Shown here: piece by piece, positions 3,600 to 45,825 of the stretch
Position numbering within the stretch: position 1 is the first letter of the stretch
Layout of the letters: each line of letters starts with the position of its first letter
Source: Desulfurococcaceae archaeon
GTDB taxonomy: Archaea; Thermoproteota; Thermoprotei_A; Sulfolobales; Desulfurococcaceae
NCBI GenBank assembly: GCA_023269825.1
Contig: JAGDWI010000003.1
Coordinates: 312,996-376,995 of the forward strand
Length of the DNA stretch: 64,000 nucleotides
Direction: 5' to 3'
Translations under genes and position numbers: made by a program
The notes under the pieces: model-generated
The model's input: the letters and a program-made list of their open reading frames with translations, nothing else
What the model was told of the DNA's origin: nothing
Databases searched by the model: none

Positions 3600-3880
3600 T
3601 GCTTCTCAAGGGTTTCCCCGAGGCGATCACTTGTGATGAGTAGTAATTAATTCTAAAAATTCTTTGCCTCGGGGGTTCTCACTTAGCTCGGGTTTTCACT
3701 GCTTCACTGCGGGGGCTATCAGGGCTCCACTTAACCCGAGAGCCCTTCATCCGCTGTAAACCCTTGCGGGCAATATTCCAGATGCTACTACATCTCTCGT
3801 AGTAACTGTTTCCCTTATCATTAAGAGTAAACCAGGAATTAGAAGACGTGGTTTCACTTAGAGCATCCCCTAATAGTTCA
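3600..3880 (-). pseudogene. Decayed TnpB (IS200/IS605-type) C-terminus
   Basis: Reading the minus strand from about 3840, one frame gives WNIARKGLQRMKGSRVKW followed by a proline/serine-rich stretch and a TGA at 3679-3681. The frame next to it gives TTRDVVAS immediately before that (about 3783-3806). The combination RDVVA...WNIARKGL is the third RuvC-motif region of archaeal TnpB proteins, split here by a frameshift. No intact N-terminal part, start codon or zinc finger remains. Downstream of the stop (minus strand) lies an inverted repeat that may be the element end. This is the remnant of a mobile element beside tRNA-Arg. Confidence 0.7.
3616..3675 (-). repeat. Inverted repeat at the TnpB remnant end
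   Basis: CCCCGAGGC at 3616-3624 is matched by GCCTCGGGG at 3666-3674, a 9-bp perfect inverted repeat around a 41-base AT-rich loop. It lies just after the tnpB stop on the minus strand, where the right end and guide RNA of IS200/IS605 elements are located. It may be the vestige of that structure. A transcription terminator is the alternative. Confidence 0.45.
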
Positions 3881-3934
3881 CATCTTCTCTGTGGAGGAAG
3901 GCCCTGTAGAGTTTATCTAGGTATTTAAAGGTAG

Positions 3935-4030
3935 CGGGCCCGCCGGGATTTGAACCCGGGGCCTCCGGCTTTCCACGAACCCGCCGGCGCTTAGAAGGCC
4001 GGCGCCCTATCCTGGCTAGGCGACGGGCCC
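3935..4030 (-). tRNA. tRNA-Arg (TCT) with intron
   Basis: Cloverleaf on the minus strand: acceptor GGGCCCG pairs with CGGGCCC, D-arm, anticodon stem CCGGC/GCCGG with loop CTTCTAA (anticodon TCT), T-arm CCGGGTTCAAATCCCGG and discriminator G. A 21-nt intron interrupts the loop after position 37, the canonical archaeal site. It begins AGCGCCGGC and ends GTGGAA, so that splicing endonuclease can restore a 75-nt tRNA. CCA is not encoded. Confidence 0.95.
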
Positions 4031-38961: not shown

Positions 38962-39240
38962 ATGGTAAAGTTTTGCCCGAGATGTGGTTCAATAATGGTT
39001 CCAGTTAAGAAAGAGGGCAAAGTCTACATGAAGTGCACGAAGTGCGGGTATGAGACTATTGAGAAGGAGAAGAAATACGGTATGAAGTATCAAATTGAAT
39101 CAACGAAACGTGTTGCGACAGCAGTAGCGAGTGAGGCTAAAGAGAGAAAGCTTACTCCCGAGGAGAGGGAAATGCTCAACGAATACTATGAGATCTTCCT
39201 AGAGGAATTTGAAAGAGAACCAGAGGAATCAGAGGAGTAA
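38962..39240 (+). CDS. TFS/RpoM-like protein lacking the cleavage ribbon
   Basis: A 92-aa protein starting with an N-terminal zinc ribbon KFCPRCGSIMVPVKKEG...CTKCGYE, the same as the first ribbon of TFS/Rpb9. The second TFIIS-type ribbon with the acidic cleavage hairpin is absent. It is replaced by a charged helical tail (KLTPEEREMLNEYYEIFLEE). It may be a TFS paralogue without cleavage activity or an RNA polymerase-associated protein (inference). Confidence 0.7.
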   Translation: MVKFCPRCGSIMVPVKKEGKVYMKCTKCGYETIEKEKKYGMKYQIESTKRVATAVASEAKERKLTPEEREMLNEYYEIFLEEFEREPEESEE

Positions 39241-39393: not shown

Positions 39394-41202
39394 TTGGTTA
39401 GAGTAGCGGTTGTCGATAGGGATTACTGTAAACCATCTAAGTGCAACTTGGAGTGCATTAGGTTTTGCCCAGTTAATAGAAGCAGAAAGAAGAAGGCCAT
39501 TGACTTATCCGAAGATAAATCGAGAGCAGTAATATATGAAGACGTATGTGTTGGATGCGGTATATGTATCAAGAAATGTCCATATAACGCTATATCAATA
39601 GTGAATTTACCAGATGAGTTCGAAAAACTACTTGTGCACAGGTATGGGGAAAACATGTTCAAGTTGTACGGATTACCTGCACCAATGACGGGCAGTGTTC
39701 TAGGAATCGTGGGTCAGAACGGTGCGGGTAAAACAACGAGTATTAGAATACTATCAGGTCAACTGAGACCTAATCTAGGTAGAATTAATGATCCTCCCAC
39801 TCCAGATGAAGTCGTAAAAGCTTTTCGTGGAACAGAAATACAAGCATACCTAGTAAAGCTCTTTAATGGAGAAATAAATGCTATTGTTAAGCCTCAGTAC
39901 ATAGAATTAGCTAGAAGAACCCTTAAGGGTACTGTGAGAGAACTCCTGGTTAAAGCTGATGAAAAGGGATCAATAAGGGATATTGTCGCTGAAATGAGTT
40001 TAGAGCGAATACTTGATAAAAAAATCAGTGAATTAAGCGGAGGAGAGCTCCAAAAATTCCTCATATCTGCTGTTCTACTTAAAAATGCTAACGCATATTT
40101 CTTCGATGAACCCTGCAGCTACCTTGATATAAAGGAGAGAATGAGAATCGCGCGCGTGATAAGGGAATTCACGAACCCGAGTAAAAACTATGTTGTAGTT
40201 ATCGAGCATGATTTAACTGTCTTGGACTACATAACAGATCACGTGGCAGTAATATACGGTGAACCCGGTGTTTTCGGTATATCGTCGAAACCATACAGTA
40301 CTAGAGCCGGCATAAATACTTATCTAAAAGGCTATCTACCAGCGGAAAACATGAGGATCAGAGATTACGAAATAAAATTCAGAATAACTGTTAAAAGCGA
40401 AGTCAAAGAAGAAGCACCTTACCCTCTCCTCGCATGGAGTAAAATGGAGTTTCAGTATCCTCAATCAGGTTTTAAACTACGTGTAGAAGAAGGAGAAATC
40501 CGTGTAGGAGAAGTTATAGGTGTATGTGGACCAAACGGAATAGGTAAAACAACGTTTATTAAACTACTAAGTGGTGAACTAAAACCCTCTATTGGCGAAG
40601 TACTGATAACCGCTGGCAATGTTAGCGTTAAACCGCAGGAGGTCTCCCCTAAGCTCTTCTCGGAGGAAACAGTTTTAGGTAACTTGAAAGCTGCATCTCC
40701 TCTGGCAGTAGATCCAACGTCTTGGCTCTACATAGAGCTAGTGAAAAGACTTAAACTAAATAAATTACTTGAACGTAGAATAGAAGACCTAAGTGGGGGA
40801 GAATTACAGAAACTCGCAGTATCAACCGCGCTCGCGAAGGATGCGGACTTATACTTTCTTGATGAACCATCAGCGTATCTAGATGTTGAAGAACGCATTG
40901 CTGTAGCTAAGACTATAAGAAGAATCATCGAAGAAAAACATAAAGCAGCTATAGTTGTAGAACACGATTTACTGCTTCAAACCTATGTTAGCGATAAAGT
41001 AATGGTGTTCTGGGGGGAACCCGCTGTTGAGGGATACTCGAATAAACCAGTGGATCTACGTGAGGGATTAAACCTTCTACTAAAGCATCTCGAGGTAACT
41101 GTTCGCAGAGATGTTGAGACAGGGAGACCACGTATAAATAAGCCGGGTTCCGTATTAGATAGAGAGCAGAAACAAAAAGGTATATATTTCTCTGTAGAGT
41201 AA
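39394..41202 (+). CDS. ABCE1/Rli1 ribosome recycling ATPase
   Basis: Splits ribosomal subunits after termination. The 602-aa protein begins with two 4Fe-4S motifs, CKPSKCNLECIRFCP and CVGCGICIKKCP. Two ABC cassettes follow: GQNGAGKTTSIRIL / LSGGELQKFLIS / FDEPCSYLDIKER and GPNGIGKTTFIKLL / LSGGELQKLAVS / LDEPSAYLDVEER, separated by the hinge. The start is TTG at 39394, after GGTGC. It is monocistronic. Confidence 0.97.
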   Translation: MVRVAVVDRDYCKPSKCNLECIRFCPVNRSRKKKAIDLSEDKSRAVIYEDVCVGCGICIKKCPYNAISIVNLPDEFEKLLVHRYGENMFKLYGLPAPMTGSVLGIVGQNGAGKTTSIRILSGQLRPNLGRINDPPTPDEVVKAFRGTEIQAYLVKLFNGEINAIVKPQYIELARRTLKGTVRELLVKADEKGSIRDIVAEMSLERILDKKISELSGGELQKFLISAVLLKNANAYFFDEPCSYLDIKERMRIARVIREFTNPSKNYVVVIEHDLTVLDYITDHVAVIYGEPGVFGISSKPYSTRAGINTYLKGYLPAENMRIRDYEIKFRITVKSEVKEEAPYPLLAWSKMEFQYPQSGFKLRVEEGEIRVGEVIGVCGPNGIGKTTFIKLLSGELKPSIGEVLITAGNVSVKPQEVSPKLFSEETVLGNLKAASPLAVDPTSWLYIELVKRLKLNKLLERRIEDLSGGELQKLAVSTALAKDADLYFLDEPSAYLDVEERIAVAKTIRRIIEEKHKAAIVVEHDLLLQTYVSDKVMVFWGEPAVEGYSNKPVDLREGLNLLLKHLEVTVRRDVETGRPRINKPGSVLDREQKQKGIYFSVE

Positions 41203-43420: not shown

Positions 43421-44869
43421 TCATATAACTACTTCTACTCTGATCTCGTGAACATTTACTCCTCGCTTAGCATAGGATTTAATCACAACGTCTCCGGGTT
43501 TTAAGTAGCCTTGTTCCCTGGTTTTCGAGTATAGTTCTTCAACGCCTTTCTCGTAGTCATCTTGCTCAGTTAGCTTCATGGATAAATCAACAGGGTTTAC
43601 TCCATAGTAAATAGTGTATTTCTCCAGTAATTTTCTACTCCAGCTACCAACAAACACAAGTACTCTCGGTCTAAGTTTAGATATTAAGGGTACAGTGCGC
43701 CCTGTTTTAGTGTAAGCTAAGACTACTCCTTCAAGGCTTTCAGCTAGATATAGGAGTCCTTGAACATATTTTTCTAGTAGAGTAGTTGGTTTTATGAGTT
43801 TCCTGGATTGTTCTACTACTACAGGAGACATGTTCTTGAAAGCAGTATCAGCAATTACTCTAGCCCATTTAACTGAGTCTACAGGGTACTTACCTATCGC
43901 GGTTTCATTAGTTAACAGTATTGCATCAGCTAGGCTGTGCACTATGTTGTATAATCCAACTACGTCGCTTCTACTAGGTCTATTGTTTTCAATCATGGAA
44001 TCGAGGATATCTGTGGCTACTATTACAGGCTTGTTTTTCTCCACGGAGATTTTAATGATCTGTTCTTGGAGCAACGGTATTGTCTCTATTGGGAAGTGAA
44101 CACCGAGATCCCCGCGTGCTATCAGTATAGCGTCCGATAAATCAGCTATCTTATTAGCGTTTCTTACTCCACTCGGTGTCTCGATTTTCGAGATTATTCC
44201 AGTGTCACAATTCAGTTGAGTTAACAAGTCTTTAACGAACTGCACATCCTGCTCATTTCTAACATAGCTGAGTGCTATGTAGGTGAAGTTCTCATTGCAA
44301 GCATACTTAACTAGTTCAAGATCTCTATCACTTAGGAAACCTGTGGGAAGCTCCTTGCCTAATATAACAATTTTTCTTCCTGGTTTGAGAACACCTGGGT
44401 TTTTAACTAAGCACTTAACGTGATCGGCGTCTACCTCGAGTACTCTCAGTTCTACTTCTCCATCACCATACAGTATTACGTCTCCTGGTTCAAGAACATC
44501 AAATACTTCTCCAGGATTAACTGGTATTTCAGCGGATCCCTCGCTGGATTGAGTTGACTTAGCTCTAGTTAATTGAACTACATCTCCTTTTTTAACTTCG
44601 ATCGTCGTGAAATTACCTGTTCTAACCTGGGGACCAGGTATATCGCCGATCACTGATACTACTGCGTCTAGTTCTGCGGATGCTTCCCTTATATTTTTAA
44701 CATAAGCACTCCATGTTTCAGGATTCCCGAAAGCCATGTTTATCCTGAAGCCGGAAACACCGCTCCTAATCATTTCTTTTACTGACTCGAGATCAGCTGT
44801 TGCAGGCCCAATGGTTGCTAATACTTTAACACCTCTACTCATTTGAACAAAACGTCTTAAACTACTCAA
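43421..44869 (-). CDS. pyk: Pyruvate kinase
   Basis: A 482-aa glycolytic enzyme making pyruvate and ATP. The barrel start is VKVLATIGPATADLESV. The usual NxSHG motif is GFRINMAFGN, a variant seen in crenarchaeal enzymes. The active-site lysine/metal region is ISKIETPSGVRNANKI and LIARGDLGVHFP, followed by ATDILDSMIENNRPSRSDV. TTG at 44869 has GGGAGAT upstream and is preferred over ATG at 44842, which has no ribosome site. It is transcribed away from the microprotein gene. Confidence 0.95.
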   Translation of the reverse strand: MSSLRRFVQMSRGVKVLATIGPATADLESVKEMIRSGVSGFRINMAFGNPETWSAYVKNIREASAELDAVVSVIGDIPGPQVRTGNFTTIEVKKGDVVQLTRAKSTQSSEGSAEIPVNPGEVFDVLEPGDVILYGDGEVELRVLEVDADHVKCLVKNPGVLKPGRKIVILGKELPTGFLSDRDLELVKYACNENFTYIALSYVRNEQDVQFVKDLLTQLNCDTGIISKIETPSGVRNANKIADLSDAILIARGDLGVHFPIETIPLLQEQIIKISVEKNKPVIVATDILDSMIENNRPSRSDVVGLYNIVHSLADAILLTNETAIGKYPVDSVKWARVIADTAFKNMSPVVVEQSRKLIKPTTLLEKYVQGLLYLAESLEGVVLAYTKTGRTVPLISKLRPRVLVFVGSWSRKLLEKYTIYYGVNPVDLSMKLTEQDDYEKGVEELYSKTREQGYLKPGDVVIKSYAKRGVNVHEIRVEVVI

Positions 44870-44987: not shown

Positions 44988-44999
44988 ATATTTATAAAT
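44988..44999 (+). promoter_or_regulatory. TATA box of the Trp/Glu microprotein gene
   Basis: ATATTTATAAAT preceded by the BRE-like AAGCAA. A start site 24-27 bases downstream falls near 45020, leaving a leader of about 12 bases with GGGGATG before the TTG at 45032. Confidence 0.6.
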
Positions 45000-45031
45000 C
45001 CTGTATAATACGTGGAGTATGGGGATGTAGT

Positions 45032-45115
45032 TTGAAGTGGATGCTGGAGGAGGAGTGGGAAGAAGAATGGGAAGAAGAAGAATGGGAAGAGGAGGAGTGG
45101 GAAGAAGAATGGTAG
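45032..45115 (+). CDS. Trp/Glu-repeat microprotein (27 aa)
   Basis: TTG at 45032 to TAG at 45113 encodes 27 residues: 17 Glu, 6 Trp, 2 Met, 1 Leu, 1 Lys. After MKWMLEEEW come Glu blocks of 3, 4, 4 and 3, each ended by Trp, so Trp stands at 3, 9, 13, 18, 23 and 27 and is the last residue. GGGGATG lies 5 bases before the start and a TATA box sits at the right distance. It ends 1 base before the stop of the convergent gene, so no other gene shares the transcript. I know of no such protein; function unknown. A low-complexity purine tract without translation is the alternative. Confidence 0.55.
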   Translation: MKWMLEEEWEEEWEEEEWEEEEWEEEW

Positions 45116-45116
45116 T

Positions 45117-45602
45117 TTAGATCATCGAGATAATAAATTGAGTATTTTTTACTAGTGCACGCAGAGACTTATCCTCGACACCACTTAAATCAGCTGGGTT
45201 ACAGGAATTAGTTACCACTGGCTCTGTGTCTACGCTTACTAGGTAATAATCTACTCCTTTCTCTACTTCACTCCCTAGCTTATCTACTAGTTCATTTAGT
45301 TGTTTAATACCCAGACTCATTGATGCCAGTAATAGTCCTTTATTTCTTGTTCTCGTTATTCTACTCGAATATATCTTGTAGTATATTGCACCTTGAATTA
45401 ATTGTAGCGGTGTTTCAACCAAGGTTACTGGTATTAAGGTTATGGGGTCATCTTGTCTAATGGCCCTCAATTTTACCTCGTCGAGTAGTTTGCTTGTAAT
45501 GTTTCTACATAGATGAATAAATACATCTAGTGAAGTATTTCTCCAAGTTAAATCTATGTGGATTTTTCCATCTTGAGAATAATATTTAAGCACCACTCTC
45601 AC
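45117..45602 (-). CDS. Probable KEOPS subunit Cgi121
   Basis: A 161-aa protein. The central block (LIQGAIYYKIYSSRITRTRN followed by KGLLLASMSLGIKQLNELV) and the later VDYYLVSVDTEP resemble Cgi121/TPRKB, the small KEOPS subunit that helps deliver tRNA for t6A37 synthesis. The match is by pattern and is not certain. It overlaps the S17e gene by 17 bases and is presumably translated from the same transcript. The t6A-modifying methylthiotransferase is at 4930. Confidence 0.6.
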   Translation of the reverse strand: MRVVLKYYSQDGKIHIDLTWRNTSLDVFIHLCRNITSKLLDEVKLRAIRQDDPITLIPVTLVETPLQLIQGAIYYKIYSSRITRTRNKGLLLASMSLGIKQLNELVDKLGSEVEKGVDYYLVSVDTEPVVTNSCNPADLSGVEDKSLRALVKNTQFIISMI

Positions 45603-45825
45603 TTGGAACCTCGGGCAACTCTACGCGTTTCTCTCTCTTAGCGGATACTGCTAGTAAATGAGTAATATAGCCTGCTATTTGATTCCTGAGCTTTTTTGAA
45701 GAAGTTATCGTTAGTTTTGATACTACTTGCTTATTGTAGTTGAAATCCCGCTTAAATAGATCAGGATACTTCTCTAGTAACTCTCTAGCGGCTCTTTTAA
45801 CAAGCTTTGTTTTCACTTTACCCAT
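45586..45825 (-). CDS. rps17e: Ribosomal protein S17e
   Basis: A 79-aa eS17 protein of the small subunit: start MGKVKTKLVKRAARELLEKY, then SSKKLRNQIAGYITHLL, both typical of the archaeal family. The C-terminal tail is short and acidic. A clear GGAGGTG lies upstream of the ATG (CACCTCC at 45835-45841 on the plus strand). It heads a two-gene operon with the Cgi121 candidate. Confidence 0.95.
   Translation of the reverse strand: MGKVKTKLVKRAARELLEKYPDLFKRDFNYNKQVVSKLTITSSKKLRNQIAGYITHLLAVSAKREKRVELPEVPSESGA

Follow-up and report, generated by a model that had tools for sequence, protein, structure and literature searches.

DSS1/Sem1, a eukaryotic partner of the proteasome lid, BRCA2 and TREX-2, is a small, disordered, acidic protein (~70 aa, Asp-rich, with Trp-containing binding motifs and a C-terminal helix), and the amino-group carrier protein LysW has an acidic, Trp-containing C-terminus. 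The N-terminal region of eIF3j/Hcr1, which acts with the ribosome-recycling ATPase ABCE1/Rli1, is likewise acidic with spaced Trp residues (SWDDE, DSWDAE and QSWDAEEEE in eIF3j). Yeast eIF3j, which starts MSWDDEAINGSMGNDDAVLMDSWDAEIGDDEPVMQSWDAEEEEKK, is found together with Rli1 in PDB entries 6zce, 7a1g and 8cah (the sequence was verified in the PDB chains), HCR1 and RLI1 interact and the loss of hcr1 is suppressed by high-dosage RLI1 (PMC3836723), and eIF3j has been proposed as an assistant of ABCE1 in recycling (PMC7196836). Lto1, in turn, is the dedicated adaptor of Rli1 and docks on the CIA targeting complex through a conserved C-terminal Trp, replaced by Phe in some organisms (PMC4523923), and the corresponding TCR motif, a C-terminal [LIM]-[DES]-[WF]-COO-, prefers Trp, accepts Phe and is required at the very C-terminus (PMC10623007).

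Here we describe a gene for a protein made almost wholly of Glu and Trp, which we call an E/W microprotein, in the window (the whole stretch of 64,000 nucleotides analysed, from a Desulfurococcaceae archaeon). It resembles the eIF3j/Hcr1 region in being acidic with spaced Trp, and where eIF3j/Hcr1 is tied to ABCE1/Rli1 by joint action and common solved complexes, the E/W peptide is tied to it by genomic linkage. However, no E/W–eIF3j homology was detectable beyond composition; the eIF3j region, in which Asp, Ser and other residues are interspersed, is only the N-terminus of a eukaryotic protein of 265 aa that has additional domains; and the helical domain that follows the Trp/acid region in eIF3j is absent here, as the E/W open reading frame (ORF) stops at that point. 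With the Lto1 tail and the TCR motif, most family members share a C-terminal Trp or Phe next to an acidic residue, and Lto1 also serves ABCE1/Rli1, but Glu rather than a hydrophobic residue stands at −2, the E/W family has neither the deca-GX3 motif nor the Yae1 binding of Lto1, and no archaeal counterpart of the eukaryotic CIA targeting complex is known. The deca-GX3 motif was sought in the E/W core and not found (118 cores, with 0.7% Gly). We claim membership of neither eIF3j/Hcr1 nor Lto1 for the E/W family, a defining feature of each being absent. The window protein also lacks the zinc ribbon and the EDWGE end of LysW, and its resemblance to DSS1/Sem1 is one of general description, with no match in a Pfam scan of E/W peptides.

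The E/W gene and its selection

The window's E/W gene translates as MKWMLEEEWEEEWEEEEWEEEEWEEEW, with Trp at positions 3, 9, 13, 18, 23 and 27. A preliminary description made from the DNA alone had given this frame exactly (27 aa, TTG to TAG, all six Trp positions), and the TATA box and GGGGATG element that it named are both present. The features concerned are as follows.

38962–39240, + strand: TFS/RPB9-type zinc-ribbon gene, directly 5′ of abce1
39394–41202, + strand: ABCE1/Rli1, ribosome-recycling ATPase, 602 aa, 3.8 kb upstream of the E/W gene on the same strand
43421–44869, − strand: pyk, pyruvate kinase, divergent neighbour (Pfam)
44991–44998, + strand: TATA-like box TTTATAAA, 34–41 nt 5′ of the start codon (enriched family-wide)
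45021–45027, + strand: GGGGATG, purine-rich leader and possible ribosome-binding site, 4 nt 5′ of the start (similar in congeners)
45032–45115, + strand: E/W microprotein gene, 27 aa, TTG start, TAG stop (selection, homologues)
45117–45602, − strand: 161-aa protein, convergent neighbour that adjoins S17e, without a Pfam match
45145–45150, + strand: T6 tract, possible archaeal terminator, 30 nt 3′ of the stop (T tracts enriched in the family)
45586–45825, − strand: ribosomal protein S17e, synteny anchor (Pfam)

Seven congeneric species carry an identical 22-residue core, within which the numbers of variable DNA columns at codon positions 1, 2 and 3 are 0, 0 and 16; the third position varies in 16 of the 17 Glu codons, and the five TGG codons are invariant. 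The other two reading frames of the core are not kept among these species, aligned starts within the genus are ATG, GTG or TTG followed by Lys, and between genera the repeat spacing shifts by whole codons. Third-position-only variation, the kept frame, aligned starts and whole-codon spacing indicate strong purifying selection on the amino-acid sequence, and the pattern is far beyond chance because it is kept across the phylum with synonymous replacement. From these comparisons, the window ORF is almost certainly a genuine protein gene that has been conserved. The preliminary description had itself asked whether relatives keep the amino-acid pattern while their codons change synonymously, and they do; its claim that this is a protein under selection, and of a kind not yet described, is strongly upheld by this synonymous-only variation and by the phylum-wide homologues.

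The alternative that the locus is no gene, being either repeated DNA of low complexity or a non-coding RNA rich in purines, is scarcely credible. The DNA of the ORF is indeed repetitive, as Tandem Repeats Finder reports a 15-bp repeat with 86% match, but variation within the genus falls only at synonymous sites, the alternative frames are not kept, spacing changes in whole codons and in many lineages the stop directly follows the last Trp. The codon-position pattern refutes both a simple DNA repeat and a non-coding RNA, and the window ORF also has no Rfam match. The mixing of GAA and GAG noted earlier is borne out, and a simple copied DNA unit is ruled out by the same codon-position pattern. 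The gene is single-copy within its own genome.

Expression signals recur around family members, with counts that come from related, not independent, sequences: SD-like motifs in 63 of 150 (15 in shuffles), TATA-like motifs in 93 of 150 (24 in shuffles) and a downstream tract of five or more T in 116 of 154 (37 in shuffles). Aligned TATA-like boxes occur in most congeners, and in one Bathyarchaeota member GGGAGGTGA lies directly 5′ of the ATG. Conservation of the T6 tract could alternatively be caused by coding constraint on the opposite-strand gene whose 3′ end contains it.

The immediate neighbourhood had been described as a frame running from pyk to an S17e/Cgi121 pair. Pfam confirms pyk and S17e, but the label Cgi121 fails for 45117–45602 (−), for which Pfam gives no match and BLAST detects no likeness to the Cgi121 protein from a related order, and the arrangement is merely local. 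Between abce1 and the E/W gene in the window lie FBPase, a 234-aa ORF and pyk. Neither the phylum-wide distribution nor the recurrent abce1 linkage described below was part of the preliminary description. Elsewhere in the window, at 3934–4030 (−), ARAGORN calls a tRNA-Pyl and Rfam a plain tRNA (~96 nt); the tRNA probably contains an intron and has had its anticodon misassigned.

Composition and distribution of the family

Across 118 distinct short cores, Glu makes up 75.9%, Trp 14.8% and Asp 3.4% of residues, with practically no Lys or Arg, and GAA and GAG codons number 1,493 and 1,314. The C-terminal residue of these cores is Trp in 84, Phe in 12 and Tyr in 1 (82% aromatic), nearly always preceded by an acidic residue; Trp–Trp spacing is mostly 4–9, and some genera have WW pairs. 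The median length of short members is 31 aa. In some lineages E/W tails end larger ORFs (L262:2923–3174 (−), L260:2944–3216 (−), L231:2915–3673 (−) and L243:3095–3898 (+)), two of which have zinc-ribbon-like domains, one weakly B-box-like and one (L260) LysW-like, the latter a point of likeness to LysW itself; these may be fusions to the E/W family. A Thermoproteaceae genome also encodes in-frame, WEENNKR-like 7-residue repeats (G319:C1:322194–322390), periodic in Trp and Glu and unrelated to the E/W family.

Searches of Pfam, NCBIfam, Rfam and PDB gave no significant match to the peptide, a null result weakened by low-complexity filters, and searches of the open-licence literature found nothing relevant on the sequence or on any Glu/Trp microprotein. 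We know of no description of a conserved protein composed almost wholly of Glu and Trp. A profile hidden Markov model built from the family alignment found no match among genomes of the class, even in those that bear the peptide, apparently owing to low-complexity filters, and it was replaced by DNA patterns with a reversed-pattern control. Such a family is easily missed, as its members are often shorter than 40 aa, at times start with TTG or GTG and have the low complexity that profile searches discard.

A DNA search of 60 relatives recovered the E/W gene from each of the seven congeners, as well as from the majority of genomes at the level of family and order, and the frames read in those relatives gave the same kind of peptide in each one examined, with few exceptions. 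The strict pattern (W-EEE, a gap of at most 15 nt, then W-E, with the backwards pattern as control) matched 135 of 229 genomes for the class and 147 of 398 genomes sampled phylum-wide, the control giving few matches; these counts are not exact frequencies, as they include some chance matches in larger proteins and miss divergent members. On this evidence from sequence, an undescribed E/W microprotein family is kept across most of the phylum Thermoproteota. Loci with members come from genomes that we take to be Desulfurococcales, Sulfolobaceae, Thermoproteaceae, Thermofilum-like and Caldiarchaeum-like, and loci were also read in named Bathyarchaeota and Calditenuaceae records. Examples are MIWLEEEWWEEEEEEEWEEEEEWWEEEEEW in genome G028 (presumably Staphylothermus marinus), LVFEEDWEEEFEEFEEEEDWEEEEDWEEEW in genome G218 (presumably Sulfolobus acidocaldarius) and MVFEEEEWEEGEDEEWEEEEW in Bathyarchaeota A05DMB-2 (L264).

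Among 50 named genomes, mostly Asgard, euryarchaeal, DPANN and ammonia-oxidizer, the strict pattern matched three: two Calditenuaceae, which carry E/W members, and one Nitrososphaeria, with a Tyr-rich variant. In the last of these, MSEEYEEEYEEEYEEEYEEEYEEEYEEGWEEEGWEEN (L344:1396–1527 (+)) is a Tyr-rich version of the E/W layout. The peptide was not found in the ammonia oxidizers checked, and no E/W match to the strict pattern occurred in the sampled Asgard, euryarchaeal and DPANN genomes, nor any E/W ORF within 3 kb of abce1 at loci from these groups, absence outside the phylum being judged from the strict pattern and the 3-kb abce1 flanks. In viral contigs, Glu/Trp-rich stretches lie mostly inside long proteins; one contig (L395, IMGVR_UViG_3300002966_000068, match at 3783–3815 (−)) has a short E/W ORF ending MEEEEEWEEEDWEEEWEEEEEE, which could be a virus-borne copy or host DNA.

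Linkage to abce1

The recurrent neighbour of the E/W gene, identified by Pfam and tblastn, is the gene for ABCE1/Rli1, the Fe–S ribosome-recycling ATPase. By a hand count at the family level, abce1 lies within 1.5 kb of the E/W gene in 26 families, for which a simple estimate puts the chance of linkage at ~0.3% per genome (1.5-Mb genome). Most of the 26 have the E/W gene upstream of abce1 on the same strand by 40–530 nt, with gaps of ~40–135 nt (f3, f11, f17, f21, f23, f27, f32, f39, f47, f48 and f57) or ~220–530 nt (f2, f8, f10, f13, f14, f43, f45, f46, f51, f61, f68 and f70); f1, f19 and f58 complete the set. Genes upstream of the E/W gene differ among the linked families, and in related orders a TFS/RPB9-type gene lies between the E/W gene and abce1 (for example, phosphoribosyltransferase, CGI-121, E/W, TFS and abce1 in f13). 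The linkage may reflect one inherited gene order instead of repeated selection for linkage.

In many genera of the window's own family the E/W gene is divergent from abce1 at ~0.5–0.75 kb, and in many families (for example, f4, f5, f6, f24, f25, f26, f38 and f40) it lies away from abce1. Other neighbours include genes for RadA (in one lineage), EF-2, a class II aminoacyl-tRNA synthetase and AdoMet decarboxylase, and the peptide is still conserved there. Because it is conserved where the gene has left abce1, the peptide acts in trans and is not merely a leader peptide. Several archaea with ABCE1 lack the peptide, and no substitute acidic-Trp tail was seen on ABCE1 itself in lineages without it; these archaea and the unlinked families indicate that the peptide is not essential to ABCE1 in general. 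In f6, of the same order, a convergent neighbour of the E/W gene encodes a radical-SAM UPF0004 protein, another Fe–S, RNA-related enzyme (L154:7101–8378 (−), L156:7103–8389 (−) and L134:1554–2870 (−); TRAM in two of the three).

Candidate functions

The preliminary description had suggested that the protein might bind a basic partner, metals or membranes, or might buffer Trp-tRNA. The frequent position directly upstream of abce1 suggests that the E/W family is a missing partner of ABCE1. By analogy with eIF3j/Hcr1, whose acidic N-terminus is the nearest working analogue, we tentatively propose, at somewhat under even confidence, that the peptide could be a disordered, multivalent Trp/acid ligand acting in trans with ABCE1 or the recycling ribosome. 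The strongly acidic and probably disordered chain would display several Glu-flanked Trp side chains, usually ending in Glu-Trp-COOH; these Trp/acid motifs would bind ABCE1, either by itself or on the small subunit of the ribosome; and the bound peptide would assist ribosome splitting, the post-splitting hold or release, a part that in eukaryotes may fall to the acidic N-terminus of eIF3j/Hcr1 with its Trp residues. Selection, phylum-wide distribution and linkage are observed for this peptide, for which we infer ABCE1 binding and a role in recycling. The likelihoods attached to the accounts of function treat them as competing.

The terminal Trp or Phe would be best explained by a role such as that of Lto1, in which the Glu-Trp-COOH end would be a targeting tail and the acidic chain would bring apo-ABCE1 to an archaeal Fe–S carrier such as a Cia2/MIP18-like protein or Nbp35/ApbC. 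Consistent with such an Fe–S maturation adaptor, the linked gene encodes an Fe–S protein, and Trp, at 15% of the core, takes 84 of the 118 C-terminal positions (Phe 12, Tyr 1), nearly always after an acidic residue. Nevertheless, this account is unlikely: the residue at −2 is Glu and not Leu, Ile or Met, the C-terminal residue is not aromatic in ~18% of members, the internal Trp repeats are left unexplained and, to our knowledge, the Cia1 receptor is eukaryotic only. TCR tails, moreover, were found to be eukaryote-specific (PMC10623007).

We consider it similarly doubtful that the peptide serves basic ribosomal or chromatin proteins in general, as an acidic chaperone or by mimicking nucleic acid, comparable to DSS1/Sem1, with the abce1 linkage a relic of an old translation gene cluster. 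The composition, 76% Glu and 15% Trp and hardly any basic residues, would suit this role, as would neighbours such as S17e, TFS, EF-2, an aminoacyl-tRNA synthetase and, in one lineage, RadA; yet no single basic partner recurs nearby, whereas abce1 does in 26 families, and a charge mimic would not need features as specific as the regular Trp placement and the aromatic C-terminus. Composition alone would also allow metal binding, Trp storage or another bulk role without a specific partner, but recurrent abce1 linkage and the order and spacing conserved within genera make this improbable. Still less probable is a cis-acting leader peptide (an upstream ORF or attenuator) that sets ABCE1 levels. 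In several families the E/W gene precedes abce1 by 40–130 nt with T tracts in the gap, as would fit such a leader, but the gene is divergent or distant from abce1 in the window's family and beside unrelated genes in others, and strong selection persists. As the E/W gene is not always upstream on the abce1 transcript, a cis leader of abce1 is rejected for the window's lineage; given the conservation seen without adjacency, a cis role could be only an addition in some lineages.

Returning to the proposed partnership with ABCE1, we give about an even chance to the broader reading that the family is a phylum-wide archaeal translation factor of nearly two letters, a stand-alone chain of Trp–Glu motifs that would dock on ABCE1 as a hitherto unseen part of the archaeal machinery for ribosome recycling or ABCE1 maturation. 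If the family is tied to ABCE1, it would offer, in Sulfolobus acidocaldarius, a test of what helps archaeal ABCE1 to split or release ribosomes, and the same tie would open a route to how archaeal ABCE1 obtains its Fe–S clusters. The E/W family is also a clean natural system for fold-free, short Trp/acid motifs at high temperature.
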